A DNA stretch of 64,000 nucleotides from Verrucomicrobiales bacterium. Lineage in GTDB: Bacteria > Verrucomicrobiota > Verrucomicrobiia > Verrucomicrobiales > DEV007. The notes under the pieces are model-generated. The model ran no database searches. It saw nothing but the letters and a program-made list of their open reading frames with translations, and was not told where the DNA came from. A program made the translations under genes and the position numbers. How positions within the stretch are numbered: position 1 is the first letter of the stretch; the number at the start of each line of letters is the position of its first letter. Positions 5,414 to 21,653 of the stretch are shown piece by piece. The stretch lies in contig JANQVJ010000056.1 of NCBI GenBank assembly GCA_030730365.1, positions 1 to 64,000 on the forward strand. The letters run 5' to 3'.

Positions 5414-6724
5414 ATGACGACCGCACCTCCACGTCTGCGACGACGGGCTCTTTCACTTCTGCTCTTCATCGCCTTCGCCACCTTCCTCCTCGCTCCCGCG
5501 CTGGCGCAGACAACGGTGCCCGAGGCGACGCTCGCGCCTGCTGCTCCTCCAGCCCCGGCGGATGCGCTCCGTCTCCCGGGAGTCTCGCTCGCCGAAGGGA
5601 TTACCCAGGTCACGGGAGTGGCGATCTCGCCGCTCCTGGGCGTTTGCGGGGTGGGAACCTGGCAGTATTTCATGACGAGTCCCGAGCAGCGCCACCTGCT
5701 GCCGTGGTTCTGCCATCCCGTCGCCTGGGGCATCGGATTCGGGATCCTCGGTCTCGGTTTCACCAAAGACCTCTTCGGATCGGCGATGCCGGCGATTTTG
5801 AAAAAGCCTTTTGATCTGGTCGAACTCTTTGAGGACAAGCTCAGCGCGATCGTCGCGGGCACGGCCTTTCTTCCCTTCCTGACGAGCCAGCTCTCGCAGC
5901 ACTTTGCGGCAAAGGCTCCGGCAACGGCGGAGTTCTCGTCGGCGCTCTCCGGTTCGGGGCTGGCTTTTATCACGCCGGAACTGGCGGGATCGTCGATCTT
6001 CCTGCTCGCGGTGTTTCTACCCTTCTCCCTGATCGCCTTTTTTGCGGTCTGGCTCACGAGCCATTCGCTCAACGTCCTCCTGCTCCTCTCGCCTTTCAGC
6101 ATTCTCGACCTCCTTCTGAAGGTCTCACGAGGGATCCTCCTGGGATTCATGGGACTGCTCTATTTTATCAGTCCGGTCGTTGCCGCGGTTCTTTGCGGCA
6201 TCGTCATCGCCATCGCGATCTACCTCGCTCCGCGTTCCTTCCGCCTCTGCGTTTTCGGCACGGTCATGTCGGTCGACTTCCTGCGATCACTCGTCCGCAA
6301 TGAATCGAAAAGCGGCAAAACGCGGGCCTTTCTTGCGCGTCAGGGAAGTGCGCCCCTGCCCGCCAGGACTTTCGGCACGCTCAGGAAAGACGACGAAGGT
6401 CGGATTGTTTTTTCGAGCCGCTTCCTCCTCTTCGGTCCTGCCCGTATCCTGACACTGCCGGACGGCGAAAGCCTCTCGATGCAGAAGGGACTGCTCTTTC
6501 CCTCGGTCCGCGTGCGGCTCGATGACTCGGAGAAGACGGAGACGCTCCTCCATCTTCTCCCCCGCCATCGCCACGACCTCGAAGCGGTTGCCGCGACTCT
6601 CGGCATCGGGGCGATCCACGATCATTACGTGGGACGCGGGATGAAGGCCATCACGCGCTGGGCGGCGGAGACCTTTCCGACGAAGTCACTGCCAGGTCCG
6701 GGGGATTCGACGGTGGTTTCGTGA
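5414..6724 (+). CDS. Hypothetical multi-pass membrane protein
   Basis: 436 residues. It starts with a signal-like segment (RRALSLLLFIAF... ending ALAQ, about residues 10-32). Several hydrophobic stretches follow: about 100-116, 155-165, and a long cluster at about 195-290. The C-terminal third is soluble. I recognise no family. It follows the VWA gene by 63 bases on the same strand, so it may belong to the same transcription unit. It converges with selB, leaving only 12 bases between stop codons, with no obvious terminator there. Confidence 0.75.
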   Translation: MTTAPPRLRRRALSLLLFIAFATFLLAPALAQTTVPEATLAPAAPPAPADALRLPGVSLAEGITQVTGVAISPLLGVCGVGTWQYFMTSPEQRHLLPWFCHPVAWGIGFGILGLGFTKDLFGSAMPAILKKPFDLVELFEDKLSAIVAGTAFLPFLTSQLSQHFAAKAPATAEFSSALSGSGLAFITPELAGSSIFLLAVFLPFSLIAFFAVWLTSHSLNVLLLLSPFSILDLLLKVSRGILLGFMGLLYFISPVVAAVLCGIVIAIAIYLAPRSFRLCVFGTVMSVDFLRSLVRNESKSGKTRAFLARQGSAPLPARTFGTLRKDDEGRIVFSSRFLLFGPARILTLPDGESLSMQKGLLFPSVRVRLDDSEKTETLLHLLPRHRHDLEAVAATLGIGAIHDHYVGRGMKAITRWAAETFPTKSLPGPGDSTVVS

Positions 6725-6736
6725 GAGGGCTCCGTA

Positions 6737-8683
6737 TCACTCCGGCAAACGCCGATCATCGCCTTCTCTAACAGTCACTTTTTCCTCGTCGAGCTTTTCG
6801 AGCAGAGGCATAAGAATGCGCCTGACCGTGCCGGTGTGCTGCCGCAGATCGCTCGCGGTCGCTTTCCCGTGTGACTGGAGATACTCGACGATCTGCGTTT
6901 TGATCCTCTCATAGCCGGCGCTGGAGATGACCGTCTTCGCATCGAGATCGATCACTTCGCCCATGTTCACGAGAAAGCGGAGCGCTTTTTCCTCGGAGGC
7001 ATTCGTTGCCGTCTCGCCCTTGTTGGGCGGCGCGATGAGATCCGAGGCGAGGCGCTGACGCACGAGTTCGCCGGCCTTGATCAGTTCGGGCGGGAGCTTG
7101 GGCTGGTGATTGCGGTGGCGGATATTCGGCCCCGCCTTGGCGAAGTCCCCCCCGAGTAATCCGGCGAGGAGCGCGTCGAAAAACTTAGCCGAGGGCAGTT
7201 CGGGACTCATCATCGTGCGGAGGTCCCGCAGCGGCAACCCGAGATGGTCGGGATGCTCGCGGTGGGCGGCTTTCACCCTGTCCCCGGCGAGGCGCGAGAG
7301 ACGCTTCCACCATCCGCTTTCAAAAATCCACTCTCCGCTCTGCACCACCTCGCCGCTCCCGAGCATGGCCTCGATCCCGGCCCGAATCTGCGTGATACTG
7401 AACCGCGACCTGGCGAGGAGCGAGGCCCGATGAACGGCTTTGTCTCGGGCCAGTTGCGTCCGCAGGAGCACGTCGAGATCGTCGAAGTGATCGCGTCGCG
7501 CCTCGAGAAACTCCGCCTGAAAAGGCTTTCGAAAAGCCCTGCGGTTCGCGTCCTCGTCGAGGACGACGCCTCCGGCAAGGGTTAGCCCGGCCGAGGCATC
7601 ACGAAGGACGAAGCTGTCGCCGATGAAGACATAAACGGGATCGCGAAAGCGCAGTTCCGCGAGGACGGATTCGCCCGGCTCGAGAGCGCGCTGTCCGAGG
7701 AGATGCAGCCGGGCGGGACATCCGGTGCTGCCGTGGTGAAACATCACTTCGCGTCCGGTGCGGAGGGCGCGGGTCGATTTGCGCATCCCGCGGATTCCCC
7801 GATCCGATTTGGTGATGAGGACGTCGATCGCGGTGACGGCGGATCCGAGACTTGGCAAGGTGAGGACATCCCCACGCGCCACTCCCGTTCGTGCGGCGTC
7901 GCCGGAGTCACGGACCGCGAGGCCGGCGAGATTCAGCGCTGTGCGGGTGCCGGGAGTGACGAGATCGGTCGCGCTCCCGTGGGACTGGGCGCTGCGAACG
8001 TGGGCCGCGAGACCACCGGGCTGCACAACGAGTTCGCTGCCCGTCTTGATCGGCCCGTCGATGAGGGTTCCCGTCACGACGGTGCCGACGCCCTTGAGGG
8101 AAAAAGCGCGGTCCACCGGCAGTCTCGGTTTACCACTATCGCGGACCGGACCCGCCGCGGTGAGCAATCCCGCCATGGCGGCGCGAAGTTCGGGAATCCC
8201 CTGCCCCGTGTGGGAAGAGACGGGCACGACCGGAGCATGCTCCCACGCGCCGCCCTCGAGATTTTCCCTGAGGTCCTCCAGGACAAGCTCGAGATCGTCG
8301 GCCAGATCGACCTTGGTCAGGGCGATAACGGCCCGCTTCACCCCGAGATACTGGAGGATCTGATAGTGCTCCTCCGTCTGCGGCATCCAGCCATCGTCGG
8401 CCGCGACAATGAAAAGGGCGAGATCGATCGCCCCGACCCCGGCGACCATGTTTTTGACGAAGTCGGAATGCCCCGGCACATCGACGACCCCGACGACGAG
8501 CTTGTCCCCGCTGCCGTCGGTCGCTTCGAGATCGAGTTCGGCAAAGCCCAGTTCGATCGTCATGCCGCGTCGTTTTTCCTCGGGGAGACGATCGGGGTCT
8601 GTCCCCGTGAGCGCCACGATCAGCGAACTTTTACCGTGATCAATGTGGCCGGCGGTTCCGAGGATGAAGTGACGGGTGGACAT
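6737..8683 (-). CDS. selB: Selenocysteine-specific elongation factor SelB
   Basis: 648 residues, close to the usual SelB size. SelB delivers Sec-tRNA to the ribosome at UGA codons followed by a SECIS hairpin. The GTPase P-loop [11 protein letters not shown] starts near residue 11, switch-[14 protein letters not shown] is near residue 68, and TKVDLADD gives the guanine-specificity motif. EF-Tu-like domains follow, then the C-terminal winged-helix region that binds SECIS RNA. It is the last gene of the minus-strand selD-selA-ABC-selB operon, 39 bases after the second permease. A working SelB predicts UGA-encoded Sec in this genome, and two such genes are visible nearby. Confidence 0.97.
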
Positions 8684-8722: not shown

Positions 8723-9646
8723 CTACCGCAACCACCGGCGAAGCGCCATCGAAAAAAGATCCCCGATAACGATAACGGAACCGCCCAGGAGCACATAGAA
8801 GAACATCTGATCCCAGAAGAACCCCTTCGACAGCGCGATGAGTTTCCCGAGCGTCAGCAGCCCCAGCATCCCGAGGACGGTGGCGTCTTTGACGCAGGTC
8901 TCCCATCGGTAGAAAAAGTAGATGAGGAAGCGGTTAAACACGCCGGGCAGGATCGTCGTGGCAAAGGTCGAGGACCGCCCCTGGCCTGCGGCAAACGCGC
9001 GGACGGCTGGGGCATCATCGGTGTTTTCCACGACCTCGCCCCAGAGTCGCCCGAGGATCCCAAGATTGTGAATCGCCAGCGCGAGCACGAGCGGCCAGAA
9101 CTGAAGTCCGAGCATGGAGATGAGGAGAAAGGCGATGAGGTATTCCGGCACGGAGCGGGAGAGGACAAATCCGAAGCGAACGAGCGGACCGATCATTTTC
9201 CAAAACATCGCCGCGAGGGTGCCGGTATTCCCCGCCCGAAGCCCGAAGGGATCGACCCGCGCGAGGCGACGGCTTGCGAGAGGCAGCAGGGGCAGGACGA
9301 CCGTGCCCGCGAGAATAATCGCCGCCGTCGCGGCCGCGAAAGTCATAAGGAGCGCGAGAAATCCCTCGTCGATCAGGAGATTCCACGCCCAGGGCAGGGC
9401 ATCGCTCCAGTCGCCTGACTGCCGCACCGGAGCTGGAACGAGCTCATTGAGAAAGTTCTTAAAGTTCAGCCAGCGCCGTTCCGCCGGGAGCCGGCCGAGC
9501 AAGGGAGTGCTCGAAAGCCAGGCCCACACGATGCCTGACACCACCACCACCGCACTCAGCCGCAGGAAGGGACTGCGGGCGCGCTGCCGCCGCAATTCGT
9601 CCACGCGGGCGAGCCTATCGTCCGGAGAGGTCAGGGCACCGCTCAT
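8723..9646 (-). CDS. PhnE-type ABC transporter permease (second), selenium locus
   Basis: 307 residues with about six hydrophobic segments. The cytoplasmic coupling loop reads AFAAGQGRSSTFATTILPGVFNRF (EAA-like) near residues 215-240, typical of phosphonate-family (PhnE) permeases. Its start overlaps the end of the preceding permease by four bases. With the neighbouring ATPase and lipoprotein it would form an importer of a small oxyanion. The placement between selA and selB makes selenate, selenite or another selenium compound the most likely substrate; this is inferred from context, not from binding-site residues. Confidence 0.85.
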   Translation of the reverse strand: MSGALTSPDDRLARVDELRRQRARSPFLRLSAVVVVSGIVWAWLSSTPLLGRLPAERRWLNFKNFLNELVPAPVRQSGDWSDALPWAWNLLIDEGFLALLMTFAAATAAIILAGTVVLPLLPLASRRLARVDPFGLRAGNTGTLAAMFWKMIGPLVRFGFVLSRSVPEYLIAFLLISMLGLQFWPLVLALAIHNLGILGRLWGEVVENTDDAPAVRAFAAGQGRSSTFATTILPGVFNRFLIYFFYRWETCVKDATVLGMLGLLTLGKLIALSKGFFWDQMFFYVLLGGSVIVIGDLFSMALRRWLR

Positions 9647-10515
9647 ATCGCGCAGCCTCCCGTGCTCGTATGCAGCCGCCGTCGGATCGCGGCCCCCCAG
9701 AGATCGACGACGACGATCATGGCGATGAGGAGATACAGATAGGTCCAGACCTCACGGTAATAAAATTCCTCGTGCGAGAGTTCGATGTAGAGGCCTATCG
9801 TCTCGATCCCGACAAATCCCAGGACCGCCGAGGAACGCAGGGCGCATTCGAAACGATAAAAGCTGTAGCTCACGAGATTCGGCGTCGCCCGCGGGAGAAT
9901 ACCGACGAGGAAGGTCTGCACCGGGCCATGGCCGATAGCCTTGAGTGCCTGCGCCGCATCGCGGGCCTCTTCGTCAATGATTTCAGAAAAGACCTTTCCC
10001 AGCGTCCCGGAAAACGGCAGGGCGAGAGCGATCATGCCGGCGAGCGGGGAAACGCCCATCGCGGAGAGAAACAGCAGCGCCCAGATCAGCTCGTGGATGG
10101 ACCGGATCACGCTCATGAAGAGACGGCTGACGAGATAGACCGAGCGCAGGAGCACCCGCGTTCGCCTCCCGCAGGGTTCGGGCCACCAGGCCGAGGATCC
10201 GAGAAACCCTAACACCAATGCCGTTGGCACCGCCAGACTCATCGCGCCGAAGGCGAACTTGAGCGTCAGAAAGACCCCCTTGATTCCCTTCCACCAGATC
10301 GGATCGGCGTCATCGGGGACATTCCCGTCCTCGTAGTCGAAGGCCGGATCGAGCGCGGCGGCAAAGAACTCGCCGGTGCGCTCCCAATGGCCCGCGTCGG
10401 GCGGAATGAGACCTCCGGGAGTAAGTCCGAGCGCCCGGGCACAGAGGAGAAAAGCGACGATGAGGCCGAGTCCGACCCAGCGTTTCAGTCCGTATTTTCC
10501 CGTCTCCGCTTTCAT
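9643..10515 (-). CDS. PhnE-type ABC transporter permease (first), selenium locus
   Basis: 290 residues. One N-terminal helix, then a periplasmic stretch rich in acidic residues (about 45-80), then the BPD-transporter core. The EAA-like loop ALKAIGHGPVQTFLVGILPRATP lies near residues 190-212. It pairs with the adjacent permease as a probable heterodimer; the two are distinct in sequence rather than recent duplicates. Spacing to the ATPase gene is 12 bases and to the second permease a four-base overlap, so all are co-translated. Confidence 0.86.
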   Translation of the reverse strand: MKAETGKYGLKRWVGLGLIVAFLLCARALGLTPGGLIPPDAGHWERTGEFFAAALDPAFDYEDGNVPDDADPIWWKGIKGVFLTLKFAFGAMSLAVPTALVLGFLGSSAWWPEPCGRRTRVLLRSVYLVSRLFMSVIRSIHELIWALLFLSAMGVSPLAGMIALALPFSGTLGKVFSEIIDEEARDAAQALKAIGHGPVQTFLVGILPRATPNLVSYSFYRFECALRSSAVLGFVGIETIGLYIELSHEEFYYREVWTYLYLLIAMIVVVDLWGAAIRRRLHTSTGGCAI

Positions 10516-10527
10516 GGGTAAGACCAG

Positions 10528-11301
10528 TCAGGCATCCGCCATCATCTCCTCATCACTGAGATCATAAAGGGCCTGCTGATCCTCTTCGCCGAGTTCGTCC
10601 GGCGCGCCGTCGAAGACGATGCGGCCTTTTCTCATGCCGATGAGACGGGGAAAAAATTCCCGGGCTAGGGCGAGGTCGTGAAGGCTCACGCAAAGGGTGA
10701 AGCCGTGCTCGGCGGAGAGTTCGCAGAGCAGCTTGACGGTGTCACGCGCCCTCGCCGGATCGACGCTCGAGACTGGTTCGTCGGCGAGAAGAGCGGCCGG
10801 ATGCTGAAAGATCGCCCGCGCGATCGCGACGCGCTGCTGCTGACCGCCGGAGAGCCGGGCCACGCGGGTGTAAAGCTTTTCCTCGATCCCGACGCGGTCG
10901 AGGATCGTGTGAATCTCGACCGCATCGGCGCGGGAAGGCGCGAGTAGATCGCGGAGCGACCGCAGCGTCCCGCGACTGCCGCCCTGCCCGAGAATGACGT
11001 TCTGAATCGCAGTGAGGTTCGGCACGAGCCCGAGGTGCTGCGGGATCGTCGCAAGGGTCGTGCGGAGACGGCGCAGCGCCCCGGCATCGCAGGTGGCGAG
11101 ATCGGAATCAAAAACGCGAATCGAGCCCTCGTCGGGGGACAGCATTGAGTTGAGGAGGCGGATGAGAGTCGTCTTCCCGCTCCCGCTCGGCCCGATCAGA
11201 GCGACCTGCTCGCCCTTTTTGATTTCGAACGAGACTCCGTCCACGGCACGCAACGCCCCGTAGCGGCGGGTCACGTTGTCGAGGCGGAAGGCGGAGGGCA
11301 T
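10528..11301 (-). CDS. PhnC-type ABC transporter ATP-binding protein, selenium locus
   Basis: 257 residues from the ATG at 11301; a longer reading to 11472 would overlap the lipoprotein gene and adds only low-complexity shadow sequence. Walker A GPSGSGKTTLIRLLN is near residue 36, the signature LSGGQQQRVAIARAI near residue 145, Walker B/D-loop ADEPVSSVDP near residue 165, and the H-loop lies in CVSLHDLALA. It closely fits the phosphonate-importer ATPase subgroup. It would power the PhnE-like permease pair that follows it. Confidence 0.9.
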   Translation of the reverse strand: MPSAFRLDNVTRRYGALRAVDGVSFEIKKGEQVALIGPSGSGKTTLIRLLNSMLSPDEGSIRVFDSDLATCDAGALRRLRTTLATIPQHLGLVPNLTAIQNVILGQGGSRGTLRSLRDLLAPSRADAVEIHTILDRVGIEEKLYTRVARLSGGQQQRVAIARAIFQHPAALLADEPVSSVDPARARDTVKLLCELSAEHGFTLCVSLHDLALAREFFPRLIGMRKGRIVFDGAPDELGEEDQQALYDLSDEEMMADA

Positions 11302-11365
11302 GGGCAAAAAGGAAACGATCCGCCTCGTGAAAAGGGGGCCAGGAATGCCCCCCCTCCTCGTGGTC

Positions 11366-12292
11366 TCAGTAGAGGTCGAGGAGTCCGAGCTCGACGGCGG
11401 TGTTCTTGATGCCGTCGAAGTCCTCGTTCTTCGCGGAGATGATGGACTCCCGATTGATGGCTTTGAGGGCATCGGACCCGGCGGGAGCCTCGATCAGGGC
11501 GGTCTGCACTTTGGCGATGAATCCGGCGCCGAAGAGACTCTCAACCTCGGGATGGATCGTGAAATTGTAGTCGGCGTAAAACGGAGTCGTCCAGATCTTC
11601 ACCGTGTTCTCGGCGACTTTGGGATCACTCTTGACCATGTCGTCATAGGTCTTGTAGTTGACCGCGCCGACCTGATAAGTGCCGTCGGCGACTGCATTGG
11701 TCGTCGCGACGTGGCCTCCGCTCATTTGAAATCCGGGCTTCTGCGTGAACCACTTGTCGGGATCGATTCCGCCATTGTTCTGCATGATGAAGTAGGTCGG
11801 CATGAGACGGCCCGAGGTCGATCCGGGAGAACCGAAGGTGAAGGTCATGTCCTTGATCGCCGCTGGAAAAGCATCGGACGGCGCGAGCCCGGTCGATTTG
11901 TTGGCGATGAGATAGGACTTGTATTTCGGGTCCTCGGATCCCTGCGCGATTGCCTGAGCCCCTTCGACGGCGAGCCGAGCCTGCACGCCGGAGAGCCCGC
12001 CGAACCAGACGAGATGGACTTCTCCGTTTTTGAATTTGGTGACCGAGTCGGCGTAGTCTTTTGAAAAGACAAACTCCACCCCTATCCCGAGTTTTCCGCC
12101 GAGATACTCGGCGAGTTTGTCGAACTTGGCTTTCTGGTCGGTGATCTTCTCGTCGGGAATGGCGGAGAGATACAGGGTCGCGGCCGCTTTGTCGGCGGAC
12201 GCGGGATCACCGCCGCAGCCGCTCAGGGCAAAGGCGGCAACGGCACTAAGGGCGGGGAGAAGCAGGCGGGTCATCATAGGTTTAAGCATCAT
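11366..12292 (-). CDS. PhnD-like substrate-binding lipoprotein (putative selenate/Se-oxyanion ABC importer)
   Basis: 308 residues. A lipoprotein signal with lipobox LSGC ends at Cys 26. The mature protein begins with a TLYLSAIPDEK strand typical of PhnD-like binding proteins and includes VWFGGLSGVQARL and FGSPGSTSGRLMPTYF motifs of that fold. From memory, NCBI annotation uses the name 'putative selenate ABC transporter substrate-binding protein' for PhnD-like proteins near selD; this one fits by position (19 bases after selA) and by sequence type. Ligand specificity is not visible in the sequence; phosphonate or phosphite cannot be excluded by motif alone. Confidence 0.86.
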   Translation of the reverse strand: MMLKPMMTRLLLPALSAVAAFALSGCGGDPASADKAAATLYLSAIPDEKITDQKAKFDKLAEYLGGKLGIGVEFVFSKDYADSVTKFKNGEVHLVWFGGLSGVQARLAVEGAQAIAQGSEDPKYKSYLIANKSTGLAPSDAFPAAIKDMTFTFGSPGSTSGRLMPTYFIMQNNGGIDPDKWFTQKPGFQMSGGHVATTNAVADGTYQVGAVNYKTYDDMVKSDPKVAENTVKIWTTPFYADYNFTIHPEVESLFGAGFIAKVQTALIEAPAGSDALKAINRESIISAKNEDFDGIKNTAVELGLLDLY

Positions 12293-12310: not shown

Positions 12311-13714
12311 TCACTGAATGGCAAGGAGACTTTCCACCAATACCACATCCTGCCCAGGGAAGACAGTACGTAAATCAATACGGTAGGAGTCGTCAGTGAT
12401 GTATCCCATCACGGGCAATTCACGCTTACGCAGGAGCTCCGCCATTCGGTCCACACTGAGCTGAAGCGGTCGCAAATCGAGGGCGAGCGAGGGTATCTCC
12501 GCCTTCGGCATGGTGCCGCCCCCGCAGCGCGCGACGGAGTCGACGAGGGAAACGTCATACCCGCCCGCGGCGGCGAGTCGCGCCATGATGGCTTCGCCGC
12601 GCGGCCGCAGATCCTCTTCCACCGAGGCGCTCAACATCGTCATGAGCGGCAGGTCGGGTCTTGTCCCGGGGCCGCAACGCAGGTATTCCATGACCGTCTC
12701 CTGCATCGCCGTGAGGATGAGTTTGTCGCAGCGCAGGGCGCGGAAAAAGGGCTCTTTTTTCACGCCGGCAACGAGATCGGCCCGTCCCGCGATGATCCCC
12801 GTCTGGGGACCGCCGAAGAGCTTGTCCCCGCTCACGCAGACGAGATCGACACCGCGATTAAGAACTTCCGCCGCGGTCGGTTCGTGGGGAATGGGCGCAA
12901 CGGATTCCGTCATGACGATGGCCCCGCTCCCGAGGTCCTCGACGACGGGGATGCCGTGGGCACGACCAAGCGCGACGAGATCCTCGGTCGAAGGTTCGCC
13001 GATGAATCCCTCCATAAAAAAGTTCGAGCGATGCACCTTCAGGAGCATCCCCGTGCGCGGCGTGATCGCCTTCTCGTAATCGGCGAGCGAGGTCTTGTTC
13101 GTCGCACCTACTTCGACGAGACGCGCCCCCGAGGCCTCCATGATCTCGGGCACGCGAAAGCCACCGCCGATCTCGACGAGCTCGCCACGCGAGATGATGA
13201 CCTCGTTGCGCTCGCCATTGGCGAGATGTTTGAGGATGAGAATGAGCGCCGCCGCGCAATTGTTCGTCACCGTTGCAGCGGGGGCCTCGCACACTTTAGC
13301 GAGGCAGACCTCGAGGAATCCCCCGCGCCGCCCCCGCTCACCCGTCTCGAGATCGAGTTCGAGATTATTGTAAAATTGTCCCACGTCGGCGATGGCTTTG
13401 ACCACCTCTTTCCGCAGGGGCGAGCGTCCCAGGTTCGTGTGGATGCAGACTCCCGTGCCGTTGATAACGGGATGAATACGTGAGCGATAGAGCCGCTCGA
13501 TCTCCCCCCGGATCACGGCGACGGAGTCCGCGAACTCTCCGATATTCGTCCGGCCCGCCTTCACGCCCTCGCGCATCGACTCGACGGATTGACGCACGAG
13601 ATCGGTGATGAGCGGCTGCGGCAACGGCGGGAGCCCGCTCTCTTTTTCCAGCGCAACGAGGACTTTATCAATCGCCGGAATTCGGCTGAAAGGATTGGGG
13701 CTTTTCTCGCTCAT
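12311..13714 (-). CDS. selA: L-seryl-tRNA(Sec) selenium transferase SelA
   Basis: 467 residues from ATG 13714; a GTG at 13741 would add nine residues. SelA is a PLP enzyme that converts Ser-tRNA(Sec) to Sec-tRNA(Sec) using selenophosphate. The N-terminal tRNA-binding domain opens with NPFSRIPAIDKVL. The INGTGVCIHTNLGRSPL segment near residue 85 is a SelA hallmark. The PLP lysine lies in VSGDKLFGGPQTGII (about residues 285-300). It follows selD by about 50 bases and precedes the Se-type ABC importer genes. Length agrees with bacterial SelA. Confidence 0.97.
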   Translation of the reverse strand: MSEKSPNPFSRIPAIDKVLVALEKESGLPPLPQPLITDLVRQSVESMREGVKAGRTNIGEFADSVAVIRGEIERLYRSRIHPVINGTGVCIHTNLGRSPLRKEVVKAIADVGQFYNNLELDLETGERGRRGGFLEVCLAKVCEAPAATVTNNCAAALILILKHLANGERNEVIISRGELVEIGGGFRVPEIMEASGARLVEVGATNKTSLADYEKAITPRTGMLLKVHRSNFFMEGFIGEPSTEDLVALGRAHGIPVVEDLGSGAIVMTESVAPIPHEPTAAEVLNRGVDLVCVSGDKLFGGPQTGIIAGRADLVAGVKKEPFFRALRCDKLILTAMQETVMEYLRCGPGTRPDLPLMTMLSASVEEDLRPRGEAIMARLAAAGGYDVSLVDSVARCGGGTMPKAEIPSLALDLRPLQLSVDRMAELLRKRELPVMGYITDDSYRIDLRTVFPGQDVVLVESLLAIQ

Positions 13715-13763
13715 TCGTCGGAATGGTAGCACGGAGTCCACCGTTTGGCATCCCCGAGGATGA

Positions 13764-14822
13764 TCAACTCACCGAAATCAACTTACCATCCGACCGTTTT
13801 TCCCCTATCCTCCCGATGACGGCACAGCAGAGCGTTCTTTCGCCTTCGCAGATCGCGAGAACCTCGTCGAGATGATGTGCCGGCACGCAACAAAGGAGTC
13901 CTCCGCTCGTCTGCGCATCGGCGAGGAGAAGTTTCGCCGCATCGGAAACTCCCCCGCCGAACGTTACGAAAGGCTCGGCCGTCTTCAGATTTTGCTTCGT
14001 CCCGCCCGGAACGCAGTCTTCTTCTTCGATCAGGCGAATGACCTCGGGGTCGATCGCGGGAATCGCCGTGGAATCGAGTTCGGCACTGACGCCGCTCGAC
14101 AGACAAAGGGAGCACAGATGGCCGAGCAGGCCGAAGCCCGTCACGTCTGTCGCGCACTTCACGAGTCCGCGTTCAGCCATCGCCTGACCGGGGGTGTTCA
14201 GCCGACACATCTGCAGGATGACGCGCTCGATGAGCTCCTCATTGACGAGCCCGCGCTTGATGCCGGTCGTGAGAATGCCGGTCCCGAGGGGTTTCGTTAA
14301 AACGAGTAGATCCCCAGGCTGCGCCGCGGCATTCGTGATCATGCGATCCGGGTGGACCAGTCCGGTGACGGACAATCCGTAGATCGGCTCGGGATTCTTG
14401 ATCGAATGTCCGCCGGCCAGCGAACACTGCGCCTCTTTCACCTTGTCGGCACCACCCTTGAGAATCTGATTGATGATCTCCACGCTGAGAATGTCCGCGG
14501 GCATGCCGACAATGTTCATCGCCGTGATGGGACGTCCGCCCATCGCGTAGATATCCGAAAGCGAGTTCGTCGCTGCGATCTGGCCATAGAGATACGGGTC
14601 GTCGACAATGGGAGTGAAAAAATCGACCGTCTGCACGAGCGCAAGGTCCGGGGCAATACGATAGATTGCCGCGTCGTCAGAGGTTCCGGACCCGACGAGC
14701 AGATTGCTATCTTCGAACTGTTCGAGCCCGTGCAAGACCTGCACGAGTGCCTCCTGGCTGAGCTTGGAAGCTCAACCGGCGCAGGACGACAGGGAAGTGA
14801 GTTTGATGGTGTTTTCTGACAT
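13764..14822 (-). CDS. selD: Selenophosphate synthetase SelD, itself a selenoprotein (in-frame TGA = Sec17)
   Basis: 352 residues when the in-frame TGA at 14772-14774 is read as Sec. SelD makes selenophosphate from selenide and ATP, the Se donor for SelA, SelU and SenB. The open part after TGA first offers ATG 14744 and lacks the catalytic N-terminus. Upstream in the same frame lies ATG 14822 and MSENTIKLTSLSSCAGUASK, where U17 and K20 match the catalytic Cys17 and Lys20 of the E. coli enzyme. Glycine-rich nucleotide-binding motifs (GSGTSDDAA, AGGHSIKNPE, TDVTGFGLLGHL) are intact. A SECIS-like hairpin follows the TGA. It is first gene of the selD-selA-ABC-selB operon and divergent from senB; no separate senC is present, so it probably also serves selenoneine synthesis. 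Confidence 0.96.
14724..14753 (-). promoter_or_regulatory. SECIS element in selD mRNA
   Basis: Read on the minus strand, CGTGCA-GGTCT-TGCACG (14745 down to 14729) is a perfect 6-bp stem with loop GGUCU, the same apical loop I recall for the E. coli fdhF SECIS. Outer GAG/CTC pairs extend it. The loop starts 33 bases after the UGA, inside the 16-37 base range of the published bacterial SECIS model. This supports Sec insertion at selD codon 17. Confidence 0.85.
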
Positions 14823-14835
14823 GTTACTGGGTAAA

Positions 14836-14855
14836 ATACGACTTTCGTCGCGTAT
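14836..14855 (-). promoter_or_regulatory. Stem-loop with GAAA loop in the selD leader
   Basis: On the minus strand CGAC-GAAA-GTCG forms a 4-bp stem with a GNRA tetraloop; an outer ATA/TAT pairs across a CG bulge, and TTTT follows. It lies 14 bases before the selD start, in the selD/senB divergent region. It could be an attenuator-like or protein-binding leader element, or chance. No convincing -35/-10 pair was found for either gene. Confidence 0.3.
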
Positions 14856-14912
14856 GCTCTCCTGTAGCTTTCATTTTTTTCAATCGAAATCAGCAGTCTC
14901 CCGACCGGCCGT

Positions 14913-15872
14913 ATGACAATTCTGCTTATTACTCCCGGCTCCCGTGTTCGCCATTCCGGTAACCGCTGCACCGCCTCGCAATGGGCCGACCTCCTGAAAA
15001 ATCAGGGGCACGAAGTAATCGTCTGCTACGATATCCCCGAAACCCTCCCCGTTACCCGAACCGATTTGCTCATCGCCATGCACGGCGTCAAATGCCACAA
15101 TGCCATTGCGCGCTATCGGGCTACTCAACCTGATGGGAAGATTCTCCTTGCCCTTACCGGCACCGATATCTATCCCGCACCGTCGGAGACCACATACGAA
15201 TCCATGGCGTGGGCCGACGGCCTCATCATCCTTCAGGAGAAGGCCTATGAAAAGATCCCGCAATCGTTCCACGCGAAGACCACGGTGGTGATCCAGTCCG
15301 TGCAAAAGAGAAAAGTTCACCCCGCCAGCCAGTCCCGCTATTTCGAGGTCTGTGTAGTGGGTCACTTCCGCGATGTCAAAAATCCGCTTCTCACCGCAAA
15401 GGCATCGCACCTGCTTCCACCTGAGTCCCGCCTTCGTATCCGACACGCCGGAGGCATTCTGGAATCGAAATACGGAGCCCTTGTCGCGCAGGAGCAAAGT
15501 GAAAACCCCCGCTACCACTGGCTCGGAGAACTATCCTCCGAGTCAGTCGTCGAACTCCTCGCCTCCAGCGACCTGATGGTCCTGAGCTCACACAATGAAG
15601 GCGGCGCGCGAGTGATCGGCGAAGCCATCGTGCACGGCACCCCGGTCCTTTCCACGCGAATCGACGGGGTCCTCGGACTCCTCGGTGAATCCTACCCGGG
15701 CTTCTTCCCTGATAATGATGCCGACGCTCTCAGCGCGCTGCTTTGGAGGAGCGAATCAGATCCTGCCTATTTCGCCAACCTGAATAATGCCTCCGACGGG
15801 CTTTCGAAACGCTTCGAACCCGAAGCGGAGGCACGCTCCCTGCGTGATGCCATCACGAAACTTTCCGAGTGA
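14913..15872 (+). CDS. senB: Selenosugar synthase SenB (GT4-like glycosyltransferase)
   Basis: 319 residues. SenB is the glycosyltransferase-fold enzyme of selenoneine biosynthesis that joins selenophosphate to a UDP-sugar to give a selenosugar. The sequence opens with ILLITPGSRVRHSGNRCTA, with an HSGN motif at the start of the donor half. The C-terminal Rossmann half contains CVVGHFRDVKNP, LSSHNEGGARVIGEA and GTPVLSTRIDGVLGLLG, typical GT4 donor-binding motifs. Assignment to SenB rather than a cell-wall transferase rests on length, the characteristic N-terminus and its place between selD and senA. The next gene, senA, starts four bases after its stop. Confidence 0.9.
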   Translation: MTILLITPGSRVRHSGNRCTASQWADLLKNQGHEVIVCYDIPETLPVTRTDLLIAMHGVKCHNAIARYRATQPDGKILLALTGTDIYPAPSETTYESMAWADGLIILQEKAYEKIPQSFHAKTTVVIQSVQKRKVHPASQSRYFEVCVVGHFRDVKNPLLTAKASHLLPPESRLRIRHAGGILESKYGALVAQEQSENPRYHWLGELSSESVVELLASSDLMVLSSHNEGGARVIGEAIVHGTPVLSTRIDGVLGLLGESYPGFFPDNDADALSALLWRSESDPAYFANLNNASDGLSKRFEPEAEARSLRDAITKLSE

Positions 15873-15876
15873 CGCC

Positions 15877-17172
15877 ATGATCACACAAGAATCCCTCCTT
15901 GCCGAAATCGCCCGGACCGACACGCAGATGATGATTCTGCTCGAAAGTCTTAGTGACGAAGAACTTGTTGTCCCCTGCGAACCGGGAATCAACCCGCCCG
16001 TATGGGAAGCCGGCCACGTCGCTTTTTTCTACGAATATTTTTTGCTCCGCCACCTGTATGGAGTTGAGCCCATCATGCCAGGACACGACACAGTCTGGGA
16101 TTCATTTGAGATTCCCCACCGCGAACGTTGGGAGCCGGGAATCGTGCCTGATAAAACGAAGACGCTCACTTACTACCGCCAGGTTATCAAAGAAACGATG
16201 GATCGTCTTTCCGCAGGGAACGGTCTTAGCGATGCAGAACTCTACCTCGGTCAGTATGTAGTGGCCCATCAGGACATGCACCTGGAGTCCCTCATCTGGT
16301 GTCGCCAGACTCTCGGCTACGCCGCGCCGCCATGGTCTGCAATGCTAACGGGCGCTGAGACCCGGGCAATCGTTCCACCCCTTCCTGACGCTGATATCGC
16401 CGGGGGCACCTATTACATCGGCATGCCAAAGCTGGATGACGGTTCTAAAAGTCCCTACTTCAGTTTCGACAACGAAAGGCCGGGATTCGAGCTGGCGATT
16501 GCTTCCTTTTCTCTCTCCCGCACTCTCGTCTCCCAGGGCGAATTTCTTGAGTTCGTAGAGGACCTCGGTTACGAAAGGCCTGAATTTTGGAGCGCCGGAG
16601 GGAGGTATTGGCTCCGAAAGGTTTCCCGTTCCCATCCCGCCTATTGGGCGAAACGCGACGGTCAGTGGACCGTTCGCCGTTTCAACCGGATCGAACCCCT
16701 TACCCCCTCCGCCCCCGTGATCCATGTCAGCTTCTGGGAAGCAGAGGCCTACTGCCGCTGGTCCGGACGCCGCCTTCCGAGCGAATATGAATGGGAGGCC
16801 GCCGCACGCAGCGCGGAAGCGCGCAAATTCCCCTGGGGCAACTCTCCTGACAGCCTACCCGCAGACCTCGACGCGAAACATCTCGGCACCGCTCCGGTAA
16901 CCGCTTTTCCCGAGGGCGCGACCAAGGACGGCTGCCTTCAAATGATGGGAACGGCATGGGAATGGACGACAAACCAGTATTTACCCTATGACGGATTCTG
17001 TGTCGACCTCTACGCCTACATGTCGACCCTGCAATTCGGCACCCACAAAACCACCCGCGGCGGGAGTGGCGCCACCTCGGGTTCTCTCATTCGAAACAGC
17101 TACCGTCAAGCCTACCATCCGGACCGGTTTGATGTTTTCACGGGATTCCGTACCTGCAAGGACGCCCCGTGA
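15877..17172 (+). CDS. senA: Selenoneine synthase SenA (EgtB-like nonheme iron enzyme)
   Basis: 431 residues from ATG 15877, four bases after senB; a longer upstream reading would overlap senB. SenA is an EgtB relative that couples the selenosugar to hercynine with O2. A DinB-like N-terminal domain provides the probable iron ligands H47 (WEAGHVAFFYEY), H131 and H135 (VAHQDMHLESLIW, an HxxxHxE motif). An FGE-sulfatase-like domain follows from about residue 165, with WEAEAYCRWSGRRLPSEYEWEAAAR and ending TRGGSG...RNSYRQ...GFR. EgtB is the alternative, but the senB neighbour favours SenA. No egtD (hercynine source) is in the window, so it must be elsewhere if the pathway works. Confidence 0.9.
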   Translation: MITQESLLAEIARTDTQMMILLESLSDEELVVPCEPGINPPVWEAGHVAFFYEYFLLRHLYGVEPIMPGHDTVWDSFEIPHRERWEPGIVPDKTKTLTYYRQVIKETMDRLSAGNGLSDAELYLGQYVVAHQDMHLESLIWCRQTLGYAAPPWSAMLTGAETRAIVPPLPDADIAGGTYYIGMPKLDDGSKSPYFSFDNERPGFELAIASFSLSRTLVSQGEFLEFVEDLGYERPEFWSAGGRYWLRKVSRSHPAYWAKRDGQWTVRRFNRIEPLTPSAPVIHVSFWEAEAYCRWSGRRLPSEYEWEAAARSAEARKFPWGNSPDSLPADLDAKHLGTAPVTAFPEGATKDGCLQMMGTAWEWTTNQYLPYDGFCVDLYAYMSTLQFGTHKTTRGGSGATSGSLIRNSYRQAYHPDRFDVFTGFRTCKDAP

Positions 17173-17226: not shown

Positions 17227-18180
17227 ATGAATCGTTTTACGGAACAACTCGCCCGCCACCACCTACCTCTGCGGCGCGGTCCCTTTCGCACCCTCCAGAT
17301 CAATGTGGGCCGCAAGTGCAATCAGACCTGCACTCACTGCCACGTCGATGCAGGACCGCATCGAACCGAGATGATGGATGCGGAGACGGCGGGCAAAGTT
17401 GCCGCGTGGATCATCGAGCATCGGCCCGCCATCGTTGACATCACCGGAGGCGCGCCGGAGCTGAGCGAGCACTTCCGCACCTTCGTGGAAACAGCACGCT
17501 CTGTCGGCGCTCGTGTCATTGATCGCAACAACCTCACCATTATCGAAACCACATCCCACTCCTATCTCCCCGAGTATCTCGCCGGGCATGAGGTCGAAGT
17601 GGTGGCATCGCTACCCTGCTATCTCGAGGAAAATGTCGATGGCCAGCGTGGCAACGGGGTCTTTGCAAAAAGTCTTCGGGCACTCCGCAAGCTGAACGCC
17701 GTCGGTTACGGTACCCGCCTGCCGCTCACCCTCGTTTACAATCCCACCGGCCCAAGCCTGCCTCCGGATCAGGCGGAGCTCGAGGCTGACTACAAGCACG
17801 AATTGAAAGAGCGCTACGGTATTGTTTTCACCCGTCTCATCACGATCACGAATCAGCCCATCGCGCGTTTCGCCTCTGACTTGCGCGAGCAAGGGCAGTG
17901 GGATGCCTATCTCGATCTCTTGGCGAACAGCTTTAATCCGGATACCGTCAACGGACTCATGTGCCGGGACACCATCAGTGTCGGGTGGCGAGGCGAAGTC
18001 TACGACTGCGATTTTAATCAAATGCTAGGGATGCAACTCCGCCAGGGCAGAGACCTCTACCTTTGGGACGTGACACCGGGGAATCTCGGCGATCACTCCA
18101 TCCGCACCGCCAACCATTGCCTCGCCTGCACCGCCGGCGCAGGGAGCAGTTGCGGAGGCTCTCTCGTTACAACCAGCTGA
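17227..18180 (+). CDS. ArsS-like radical SAM/Cys-rich protein
   Basis: 317 residues. The radical SAM cluster motif CNQTCTHCH lies at residues 31-39, followed by HVDAGPHRTEMM and an ITGGAPE segment. The C-terminal half has further cysteines: a CRDTISVGWRGEVYDCDFNQ SPASM-like part and a terminal CLACTAGAGSSCGG. This is the ArsS / 'rSAM_SeCys' family, in which, from memory, many members carry Sec in the C-terminal motif; here all positions are Cys. Known ArsS makes the 5'-deoxyadenosyl arsenical that leads to arsenosugars. It starts 54 bases after senA, so a selenium substrate is conceivable but unproven. No arsM is visible in the window. Confidence 0.85.
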   Translation: MNRFTEQLARHHLPLRRGPFRTLQINVGRKCNQTCTHCHVDAGPHRTEMMDAETAGKVAAWIIEHRPAIVDITGGAPELSEHFRTFVETARSVGARVIDRNNLTIIETTSHSYLPEYLAGHEVEVVASLPCYLEENVDGQRGNGVFAKSLRALRKLNAVGYGTRLPLTLVYNPTGPSLPPDQAELEADYKHELKERYGIVFTRLITITNQPIARFASDLREQGQWDAYLDLLANSFNPDTVNGLMCRDTISVGWRGEVYDCDFNQMLGMQLRQGRDLYLWDVTPGNLGDHSIRTANHCLACTAGAGSSCGGSLVTTS

Positions 18181-19148: not shown

Positions 19149-19244
19149 TGGCGGAGAGGGAAGGAATCGAACCAACCCCGGCAAGGATCACTCGCCGACA
19201 ACGGTTTTGAAGACCGCGGAGCCCACCAGGACCCATCTCTCTCC
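19149..19244 (-). tRNA. selC: tRNA-Sec (anticodon TCA)
   Basis: 96 bases with encoded CCA. Acceptor GGAGAG pairs with CTCTCC, the discriminator is G. The anticodon loop CTTCAAA (anticodon TCA) sits on GCGGT/ACCGT. The long variable arm forms CGGCGAG-TGATC-CTTGCCG. T-loop TTCGATT is canonical. Total length matches bacterial tRNA-Sec (about 95). Odd points: T-stem GTTGG/CCTTC has two T-T oppositions, acceptor pair 7 is A-C, and the D-stem has one mismatch. It lies 45 bases after the NifS-like gene on the same strand and may be co-transcribed with selU and that gene. Confidence 0.93.
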
Positions 19245-19289
19245 AATAGAGAGGGGAATCTTCATGCCGTCAGGCGAAAAGGTCAATCC

Positions 19290-20450
19290 TCATGATGCGG
19301 CGCGAAGTCGTTTCAGCACCTTGATGATCTTTCCGACCGCCTCATCCACCTCTTCCTCCGTCGTAAAGATGGAGAGCGACAAGCGCAGACTGCTAAAAGC
19401 TCGCTCGTCGCTAAAACCCATCGCCTTCTGGACATGGCTGGGCTGACTTTTCCCTGCCATGCAGGCGCTCCCGGCAGAGCATTCCACTCCGAACGCATCG
19501 AGGGCGGGGAGGAGTTCCGCAGCGGTGCAGCCGGCGAAGGAAAGGTGGGCGACATTTCCCGTGCGGTGCTCCCGCGATCCGTTGCACGTGACCCTGTCAG
19601 GTCCCTCACCCAACCCTGTCAGGAGCCCACCCTCGAGCCGGTCTCTGAGACGAGTGACCCGCGCCATCCCCCCGCCGGAAATCTCCTCCCGCATCAGCGC
19701 GGCGGCGGCTCCGAGCCCGACGAGGTAGGGCACATTCTCCGTCCCGCTGCGCCGCCCCGACTCCTGCCCTCCTCCCCGTATCATGGGCTCAATCGGACTT
19801 CCTCGACGGATAAAAAGGGCGCCCACTCCTTTGGGCGCGTGGAACTTATGACCACTTATTGAAAGGTAATCGACAGCCACTTCGTCAACCCGCACAGGAA
19901 TCTTGCCAACCGCCTGTATCGCATCGGTATGGAAAAACCATCCGGCCTTTTTTGCGATCTCGCAGGCTTCCGCGATCGGCTGGATCACGCCCGTCTCGTT
20001 GTTTGCCCACATCACCGAGGCGAATCCGGGACAGGTATCGACAACGACCGAGGCGAAGTCATCCAGATCGAGACGGCCGTCTTCCCCGACCCTCGCCGTT
20101 TTCACCTCGAACCCGACCGCCGCCATCGCCTCGACCGGGCGGATCACCGCACTGTGCTCGATCGCACTGACGACGACGCGGGAGTGGCGACGCCCGATCT
20201 CCCGGGCGAGGGATTTAATCACGGTGCTATTTGCCTCAGTCCCGCTCCCGGTGAAGACAATCTCGTCGGGATGAGCTCCAATGAGAGCGGCGACCTGTTC
20301 CCGGGCAATCTCGATTGCGTTGCGCACGTCCCTTCCCGCGGCGTAGTTGCTCGAGGGATTGTGCCAGTGTCCGGTGAGAAATGGCATCATCGCCTCGACC
20401 ACTCTGGGATGGACCTTAGTCGTGGCATTAGAGTCAAGATAGATCGCCAT
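19290..20450 (-). CDS. Cysteine desulfurase, NifS/IscS type (possible Se donor enzyme)
   Basis: 386 residues. A PLP enzyme that removes S from cysteine, or Se from selenocysteine, as a persulfide/perselenide. The start MAIYLDSNATTKV, an IEHSAV histidine near residue 100, the PLP lysine in SISGHKFHAPKG (near 200) and GGGQESGRRSGTENV are group-I NifS features. The active Cys loop reads ECSAGSACMAGKSQPSHV near residue 325. It sits between selU (36 bases upstream) and tRNA-Sec on the same strand, which suggests delivery of Se to SelD rather than, or besides, Fe-S assembly; no iscU or sufB is nearby. Confidence 0.93.
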   Translation of the reverse strand: MAIYLDSNATTKVHPRVVEAMMPFLTGHWHNPSSNYAAGRDVRNAIEIAREQVAALIGAHPDEIVFTGSGTEANSTVIKSLAREIGRRHSRVVVSAIEHSAVIRPVEAMAAVGFEVKTARVGEDGRLDLDDFASVVVDTCPGFASVMWANNETGVIQPIAEACEIAKKAGWFFHTDAIQAVGKIPVRVDEVAVDYLSISGHKFHAPKGVGALFIRRGSPIEPMIRGGGQESGRRSGTENVPYLVGLGAAAALMREEISGGGMARVTRLRDRLEGGLLTGLGEGPDRVTCNGSREHRTGNVAHLSFAGCTAAELLPALDAFGVECSAGSACMAGKSQPSHVQKAMGFSDERAFSSLRLSLSIFTTEEEVDEAVGKIIKVLKRLRAAS

Positions 20451-20486: not shown

Positions 20487-21569
20487 TCACCGAAAGGCTC
20501 CCGACGCGGTGATTGATGCCGCTCTTTCCGCGAGAATATCCGCGCAGGCGGATACGGTGGCTTTATCATGACCCGGAAGTTCCAGCGTCAGGGAAGGTTT
20601 TTCGAAATAACCACTTCCGCCCACGGAGTAGCGTCTGTCATAGTGCTCGGCAAGGAGTCGCGTCACGAGCGTCACCCAGTCACCGCGATCCGCGAGCGTC
20701 TTCCACTCAACGATTACTTGCGCAGGCTGGTATTCCCTGAGACGGTCTATCGTGTTTCGCACCCGCTCCGAGTCCGTGACCCATTTGGCATAGTCGGCGG
20801 TGAGATAATCGGCCCGTGCCGCCAGTGGGGACGAGATCTCGATGACCGGCGCGACTTTCATCCGCTGCCAGAGCGGATTGGGAAGGTTCAGCCTCCCGAT
20901 CTTGGCGCTCTCGGCTTCGAGGAAGACGGGGCGCGACGTCTCGAATCGGGATATCCTGTCAAAGAGGAGTGACTCGAACCGCTTCTGCGCCGGCTGGGGA
21001 CTCTCGCGGTCGCCGCCGAAGACGGACCCCTTGTGACAAGCGAGTCCCTCGAGATCGAGGACCTGCTCACCGGATCGGGCAAGCGATTTGAGAAGAAGCG
21101 TTTTCCCTGCTCCGGTGAATCCGTTGAGAATGACGAAATTCAGCTCCTCCGCGCCCCGCCGTATCGTCTCGATGACATGACCGCGGTAGCTGCGGTAGCC
21201 GCCCTCGATCACCGAAGTGGACCACCCGATGTCGGCGAGTACGGTCGCGAGGCTGCCCGAGCGCTGTCCACCGCGCCAGCAATAGACGAGCGGGCGGTAA
21301 TCTTTCCCCTTGGACAAAAAGTGCGACTCGAGATGAGCCGAGATGTTTTTCGAGACGAGTGACGCCCCGATTTTACGTGCGTCAAAGGGCGAGACCTGTT
21401 TGTAGATCGTCCCGACACGGACGCGCTCCTCGTCATTCAGGACAGGGAGATTAATCGCCCCGGTGAGGTGGTCCTCGTGAAATTCCACGGGCGCGCGCAC
21501 GTCGATGATCTCGTGAAAGGGAGATTCGGCGGAGAGGGGGAAATGGATTCTTTCGATGAGACGACTCAT
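20487..21569 (-). CDS. selU: tRNA 2-selenouridine synthase SelU (MnmH)
   Basis: 360 residues from ATG 21569; a GTG at 21614 would add 15 residues of poor fit. SelU replaces S by Se at the wobble 2-thiouridine of Lys, Glu and Gln tRNAs via a geranylated intermediate, using selenophosphate. The rhodanese domain opens with EIIDVRAPVEFHEDHLTGAIN, and the catalytic Cys97 lies in VYCWRGGQRSGS. A P-loop GFTGAGKT at residues 150-157 starts the second domain. Length is typical. It is first of the selU-nifS-selC unit and divergent from the small selenoprotein gene. Confidence 0.96.
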   Translation of the reverse strand: MSRLIERIHFPLSAESPFHEIIDVRAPVEFHEDHLTGAINLPVLNDEERVRVGTIYKQVSPFDARKIGASLVSKNISAHLESHFLSKGKDYRPLVYCWRGGQRSGSLATVLADIGWSTSVIEGGYRSYRGHVIETIRRGAEELNFVILNGFTGAGKTLLLKSLARSGEQVLDLEGLACHKGSVFGGDRESPQPAQKRFESLLFDRISRFETSRPVFLEAESAKIGRLNLPNPLWQRMKVAPVIEISSPLAARADYLTADYAKWVTDSERVRNTIDRLREYQPAQVIVEWKTLADRGDWVTLVTRLLAEHYDRRYSVGGSGYFEKPSLTLELPGHDKATVSACADILAERAASITASGAFR

Positions 21570-21653
21570 GTCTGCGATCTCAACGCTCCGTCGCTCGCGG
21601 CGGAGTGGGGACACCTGCCTTACATGGATGAGGGGACGGAAATGCGCAATGAT

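Follow-up and report, generated by a model that had tools for sequence, protein, structure and literature searches.

The main finding of this work was the identification of a selenophosphate synthetase gene, selD, that almost certainly encodes a selenoprotein itself, in a window of 64,000 nucleotides (the whole stretch of DNA that was analysed) from a Verrucomicrobiales bacterium. As judged from the sequence, translation would start at ATG 14822, and the UGA at 14774-14772 would be read as selenocysteine (Sec), directed by a hairpin at 14747-14727. On the minus strand, the gene (13764-14822) runs from ATG 14822-14820 through 15 further codons to the in-frame TGA 14774-14772, beyond which the frame is open to the TGA at 13766-13764. 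Its product, of 352 amino acids with Sec at position 17 (U17), is assigned to the family by its match to TIGR00476 (387.1 bits for the readthrough protein against a cut-off of 125, with residues 7-315 covering positions 1-308 of the 311 of the model) and by its alignment to the Cys-SelD of PDB entry 3U0O; phmmer also aligned the protein to entry 2YYE. The motif around codon 17 reads LSSCAG-U-ASKL. SelD and 3U0O are collinear from Met1, with M1 on M1, U17 on C17 and K20 on K20 in a gap-free stretch, and the in-frame TGA occupies the position of Cys17 of E. coli SelD, with Lys20 in register. Both catalytic residues of the N-terminal loop, Cys/Sec17 and Lys20, are present in the window gene and are kept in its homologues, as seen in the 3U0O and homologue alignments. 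Strand reading, translation and phmmer therefore bore out the coordinates, the motif and the N-terminal alignment given in the original prediction, including the claim that a SSCAGUASK motif aligns with Cys17/Lys20 of known SelD proteins. The protein is predicted to form selenophosphate from selenide and ATP; unlike 3U0O, which has Cys in place of Sec and needs no SECIS, it would require Sec insertion in vivo.

The gene lies amid the machinery for Sec synthesis and decoding. A single run of minus-strand genes comprises selD, selA, a putative selenate ABC transporter and selB, in an order that recurs in many relatives. The run includes the Sec synthase gene selA (12311-13741; TIGR00474, 491 bits against 268) and the Sec elongation factor gene selB (6737-8683; TIGR00475, 287 bits against 242). 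Between them lie the genes of the transporter: a substrate-binding protein (11366-12292; TIGR04553, 259.8 bits against a cut-off of 250), a PhnC-like ATPase (10528-11472; TIGR02315, 232 bits, below the cut-off of 266), whose true start is probably near 11295, and two PhnE-like permeases, the first (9643-10515) with 171 bits to TIGR01097, below the cut-off of 217, and the second (8723-9646) assigned from its position, both in an operon order kept in relatives. The tRNA-Sec gene selC (19152-19245, minus strand; ARAGORN, and RF01852 with 68.7 bits against 47) is also in the window, so that selA, selB and tRNA-Sec all accompany selD, and next to selC a NifS-type cysteine desulfurase, a possible source of selenide, is encoded at 19290-20450 (minus strand; TIGR03402, 427 bits, below the cut-off of 531). 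In one relative (G011), two tRNA-Sec genes, at 4887-4979 and 5587-5681 of locus L073, were found about 0.6 kb apart.

Upstream of selD, and divergent from it, lies senB, a selenosugar synthase gene (14913-15872, plus strand), with a TIGR04348 score just under the cut-off (294.7 against 300) and matches of 136-137 bits to SenB crystal structures. The 90-nt region between the two genes (14823-14912) held no sigma-70 type site in a promoter scan. This neighbourhood bears on the function of the protein, since SelD, while containing Sec, might be a dedicated SenC-type enzyme of a metabolite branch, with another SelD serving Sec synthesis. The sen locus is defined by a selD-type gene beside two further genes (PMC9814287), and the divergent senB is only 90 nt away, in a pairing that many relatives share. 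In the sen cluster, SenC, which serves selenoneine, is likewise a SelD homologue adjoining SenB and a C-Se enzyme of the EgtB superfamily. Against such a role, the TIGR00476 profile search of the genome, which is 93.5% complete, found the window selD as the only SelD above the cut-off, and selD heads the selD-selA-transporter-selB run in many relatives, even where senB is not nearby (as in G007, G008 and G023). A SenC-type role is thus unlikely. In contrast to SenC, the window SelD contains Sec and seems to be shared with selA, selB and selU, and its neighbouring C-Se enzyme is nearer to OvsA than to SenA.

At selD, the table-11 list of open reading frames gave only GTG 14744 to 13764 (326 amino acids). 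If a functional protein started at this GTG (14742-14744, minus strand), the upstream frame would be non-coding and the product would be a shortened SelD that lacks the catalytic loop. Besides the ORF call, PDB entry 2ZAU, in which the chain of this enzyme is trimmed at the N-terminus and whose match begins at query residue 32, could be read in its favour. However, only 4 of 32 Sec homologues have GTG at this position, the others carrying GCG, ACG, TCG or GCA, and the codon is part of the hairpin stem; it was therefore ruled out as a general start. Moreover, Met1 to Lys20 align with 3U0O, and the codons upstream of the TGA are under purifying selection: over codons -10 to -1, mean pS was 0.65 and mean pN 0.18 (34 sequences), which points to constraint at the protein level. 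In a set of 32 distinct homologues with the TGA, the residues flanking this codon show strong conservation, while synonymous differences are numerous; Leu-9, Thr-8, Leu-6, Ser-4 and Gly-1 are invariant with varying codons, and Cys-3 is kept in 31. Initiation at GTG 14744 is accordingly very unlikely. As had been proposed, the plain ORF misses the true start, the reading of the TGA as Sec restores ATG 14822, in register with Met1 of 3U0O, and the frame upstream of the TGA, whose conservation had been named as a check, is conserved. Upstream of ATG 14822, the frame meets an in-frame TGA at a distance of 17 codons, with no ATG, GTG or TTG in between. In the leader, no Shine-Dalgarno sequence stands at the usual distance from this ATG, the nearest AGGAG being about 40 nt upstream.

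Downstream of the TGA, the candidate bacterial SECIS (bSECIS) element (14727-14747, minus strand) was identified by folding and covariation. It has a stem of 8 bp (CUCGUGCA/UGCACGGG; core CGTGCA-GGTCT-TGCACG) and a fold energy of -10.6 kcal/mol. Its GGUCU loop (14739-14735) occupies bases 33 to 37 downstream of the TGA, with a spacer of 32 nt, in line with the original prediction of a hairpin 33 bases downstream. These values are within the published bSECIS limits of a 3-9 nt loop, a 4-16 bp stem, a G at one of the first two loop positions and 16-37 nt from the UGA (PMC13188914). A single hairpin of this kind is by itself weak evidence: 22% of ordinary coding positions satisfy the lenient rule (3.7% at -7 kcal/mol or better), and against shuffled sequences its z was only -1.2 to -2.3. 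It is the comparison among relatives that carries the weight, and on this ground the arrangement of TGA and hairpin is not a chance pattern. Of 33 distinct Sec homologues, all but L030 and L051 satisfy the rule (31 of 33), with spacings of 32-33 nt and energies of -6.6 kcal/mol or better, and the hairpin is absent from both near Cys homologues with TGC (L027 and L046). Three of the five core stem pairs show two-sided changes (14 cells against 2.2 expected, reached in 0 of 500 shuffles); these shuffles ignore relatedness, and the weight is carried by several distinct pair types and by the slid control, where 5-63% of cells pair, against 99.4% in the core stem. The stem changes alter amino acids pairwise (Val/His, Ala/Arg, Thr/Arg, Ser/Arg and Ala/Cys), as would be expected if RNA pairing were the constraint. 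Taken together, the comparison makes a strong case for the hairpin as a SECIS. Another hairpin, on the 5' side, which pairs the UGA itself in the minimum free energy fold (columns 1-16), lacked two-sided changes, had 85% of its cells paired and was excluded from the element.

The distribution of the TGA was followed in 56 genomes drawn from the genus, family and order of this bacterium, those with names being Akkermansiaceae and Verrucomicrobiales metagenome assemblies. SelD scored above the cut-off in 35 of them, and in 30 of these 35 the gene contains one TGA. Of the five relatives whose SelD has no TGA, four were read as Cys at the codon, with TGT in G053 and G020 and TGC in G049 and G030 (G033 is not among these four); in the homologues read, codon 17 is exclusively TGA, TGC or TGT. 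In a tree of 39 proteins, the TGC pair L027/L046 is placed with the Sec sequence L023 (support 85/88) inside the Sec clade, which fits a replacement of Sec by Cys in this pair, although the deeper branching is uncertain owing to long branches. SelB was above the cut-off in 26 of the 30 genomes with TGA-SelD; truncated or split pieces were present in three (G002, G013 and G029), and none was found in G028, a genome 79% complete. None of the 21 genomes without a full-scoring SelD had SelB. A search of plasmid records returned only SelD proteins of less than 60% identity. A second, divergent type of TGA-SelD was observed in L030 (G024) and L088 (G034), with SKTCG-U-AAKIDP in L030, where no hairpin passed the simple SECIS test. 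Open frames of 760-770 amino acids without TGA that include SelD, on G024:C148, G030:C77 and G033:C2, are likely fusion proteins. G033 has a TGA-containing FdhA, yet no SelB over the cut-off.

These data also bear on the amino acid inserted, since the UGA could be read as something other than Sec, by a near-cognate tRNA or in an altered code, and a minor product with Cys or a near-cognate residue could retain some activity. TGA is, however, the ordinary stop of most genes neighbouring selD, from which the genetic code is taken as standard, and an altered code was rejected. With selA, selB and selC adjacent, SelB co-occurring with TGA-SelD, a covarying SECIS, and Cys as the replacement seen in relatives, non-Sec readthrough is extremely improbable. 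That the TGA is a disabling mutation (a pseudogene) or a sequencing error, as a multi-contig assembly might contain, is negligibly probable, with the same codon in 30 of the 35 SelD genes of relatives and in separately named assemblies (L033-L051), and a frame that is otherwise open and matches SelD with 387 bits.

As a Sec-containing SelD, the window protein is a further case of a recoding already well known in other bacteria. Haemophilus influenzae and Aquifex provide examples. The original prediction had mentioned such proteins, and they do form a standard selenoprotein family (PMC1794560, PMC4561486, PMC13188914): Sec-SelD accounts for 19% of the SelD genes in a reference set (PMC4561486), and SelD is the second most widespread of more than 110 known prokaryotic selenoprotein families (PMC13188914). 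The gene described here shares with Sec-SelD/SPS2 (Zhang 2006; Mariotti 2015) the UxxK motif, with Sec at Cys17 followed by Lys, the family and length, and the in-frame UGA with a bSECIS directly downstream; no difference in recoding was found. What differs is the host, of the Akkermansiaceae/Verrucomicrobiales, and a gene island that also contains SelU and a SenB/OvsA-like pair. In the literature searched, which was covered in part and on which no claim of a first report is based, no description of Sec-SelD together with SenB/OvsA-like genes was found.

This setting is more unusual than the gene itself: the one SelD detected in the genome lies at the centre of an unusually complete selenium island of 15 kb with SelU, a divergent SenB and an OvsA-like enzyme. 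The selU (ybbB) gene, for tRNA 2-selenouridine synthase, is at 20487-21614 (minus strand; TIGR03167, 358 bits against 220). Following senB, a gene at 15877-17172 (plus strand; start at 15877 inferred) encodes a selenoxide synthase-like protein of the EgtB/OvoA/SenA superfamily. The name SenA, suggested by the NCBIfam match, was rejected, since the protein scored 410 against the cut-off of 420 of the SenA model NF041186, and its closest characterised homologue, over its full length, is OvsA (8U41, 477 bits, query 5-431), with only 177 bits to SenA (8K5I); we therefore call it OvsA-like. OvsA attaches selenium to histidine in the making of ovoselenol. Ovoselenol is mentioned in the selenoprotein literature (PMC13188914). 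The OvsA-like enzyme is predicted to form a C-Se bond on histidine, and its closeness to OvsA makes a metabolite of the ovoselenol type more likely than selenoneine. No methyltransferase was seen beside this gene. Ten genomes have strong matches to the OvsA-like family (335 bits or more), and all ten have TGA-SelD. In four relatives, SenB is divergent from Sec-selD (L070 in G006, L073 in G011, L074 in G012 and L080 in G021), and no SenA/OvsA-like gene stands beside SenB or scores strongly elsewhere in these genomes; the SenB/selD neighbours in relatives without an OvsA-like gene are unrelated or belong to no family, and the selenosugar may have another use there. Directly after the ovsA-like gene, an arsS-type radical SAM protein is encoded at 17227-18180 (plus strand; TIGR04167, 424 bits against 300); the family is named for selenoprotein members, and this one is a Cys form with no internal TGA, linked to selenium only by position.

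Based on these observations, we hypothesize that SelB and Sec-tRNA(Sec) would decode UGA 14774-14772 as Sec under the direction of the hairpin, and that the resulting selenophosphate synthetase, of full length, would carry Sec17 and Lys20 in its active-site loop. Selenophosphate would then supply SelA for the Sec-tRNA that SelD itself requires, SelU for 2-selenouridine in tRNA, and SenB with the OvsA-like enzyme for an ovoselenol-type histidine metabolite with a C-Se bond. The original prediction had held that selenium supply depends on Sec synthesis in this way. That part is logical, given a single SelD above the cut-off in a genome 93.5% complete, and we infer from it a self-dependent loop, where the enzyme that makes selenophosphate for Sec-tRNA itself needs Sec-tRNA; a second, Cys-type SelD could be missing from the assembly. 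SelD itself may be the main reason why the Sec machinery is retained. Besides SelD, five families of the more than 110 known were covered in this respect: FdhA of this genome is a Cys form (ARVCHSPT) without TGA, the AhpC/TSA, CMD and thioredoxin matches in the genome have no TGA inside, and no SelW match was found in it. A proposal of 2006 described SelD as the single selenoprotein in species that use selenouridine, where it would maintain the Sec trait for itself and for selenouridine (PMC1794560). A wider reading, that selA, selB and selC are kept for SelD alone and that the real outputs of the loop are not proteins but tRNA selenouridine and an ovoselenol-type metabolite, is tentative and rather doubtful. 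A TGA lies inside FdhA in fourteen relatives (one a fragment), so that the group is not uniformly SelD-only. A separate observation concerns G049 (L053/L027 and L103), a Cys-SelD genome with SelB, no TGA in FdhA-type genes, no SelU, and a SelW-like gene with an internal TGA; it appears to break the rule of 2006 by which every bacterium that decodes Sec carries Sec-FdhA or Sec-SelD.

For Sec-decoding bacteria, the window is another instance where standard gene calling removes the SelD active site, in this case in a large part of a genus of uncultured bacteria of Akkermansiaceae type. If true, a SelD-only loop would extend the 2006 proposal on the Sec trait from selenouridine to small selenometabolites, and, if the wider reading holds, these bacteria would offer a natural test of whether the purpose of the costly Sec machinery is a better SelD for uses of selenium other than selenoproteins.
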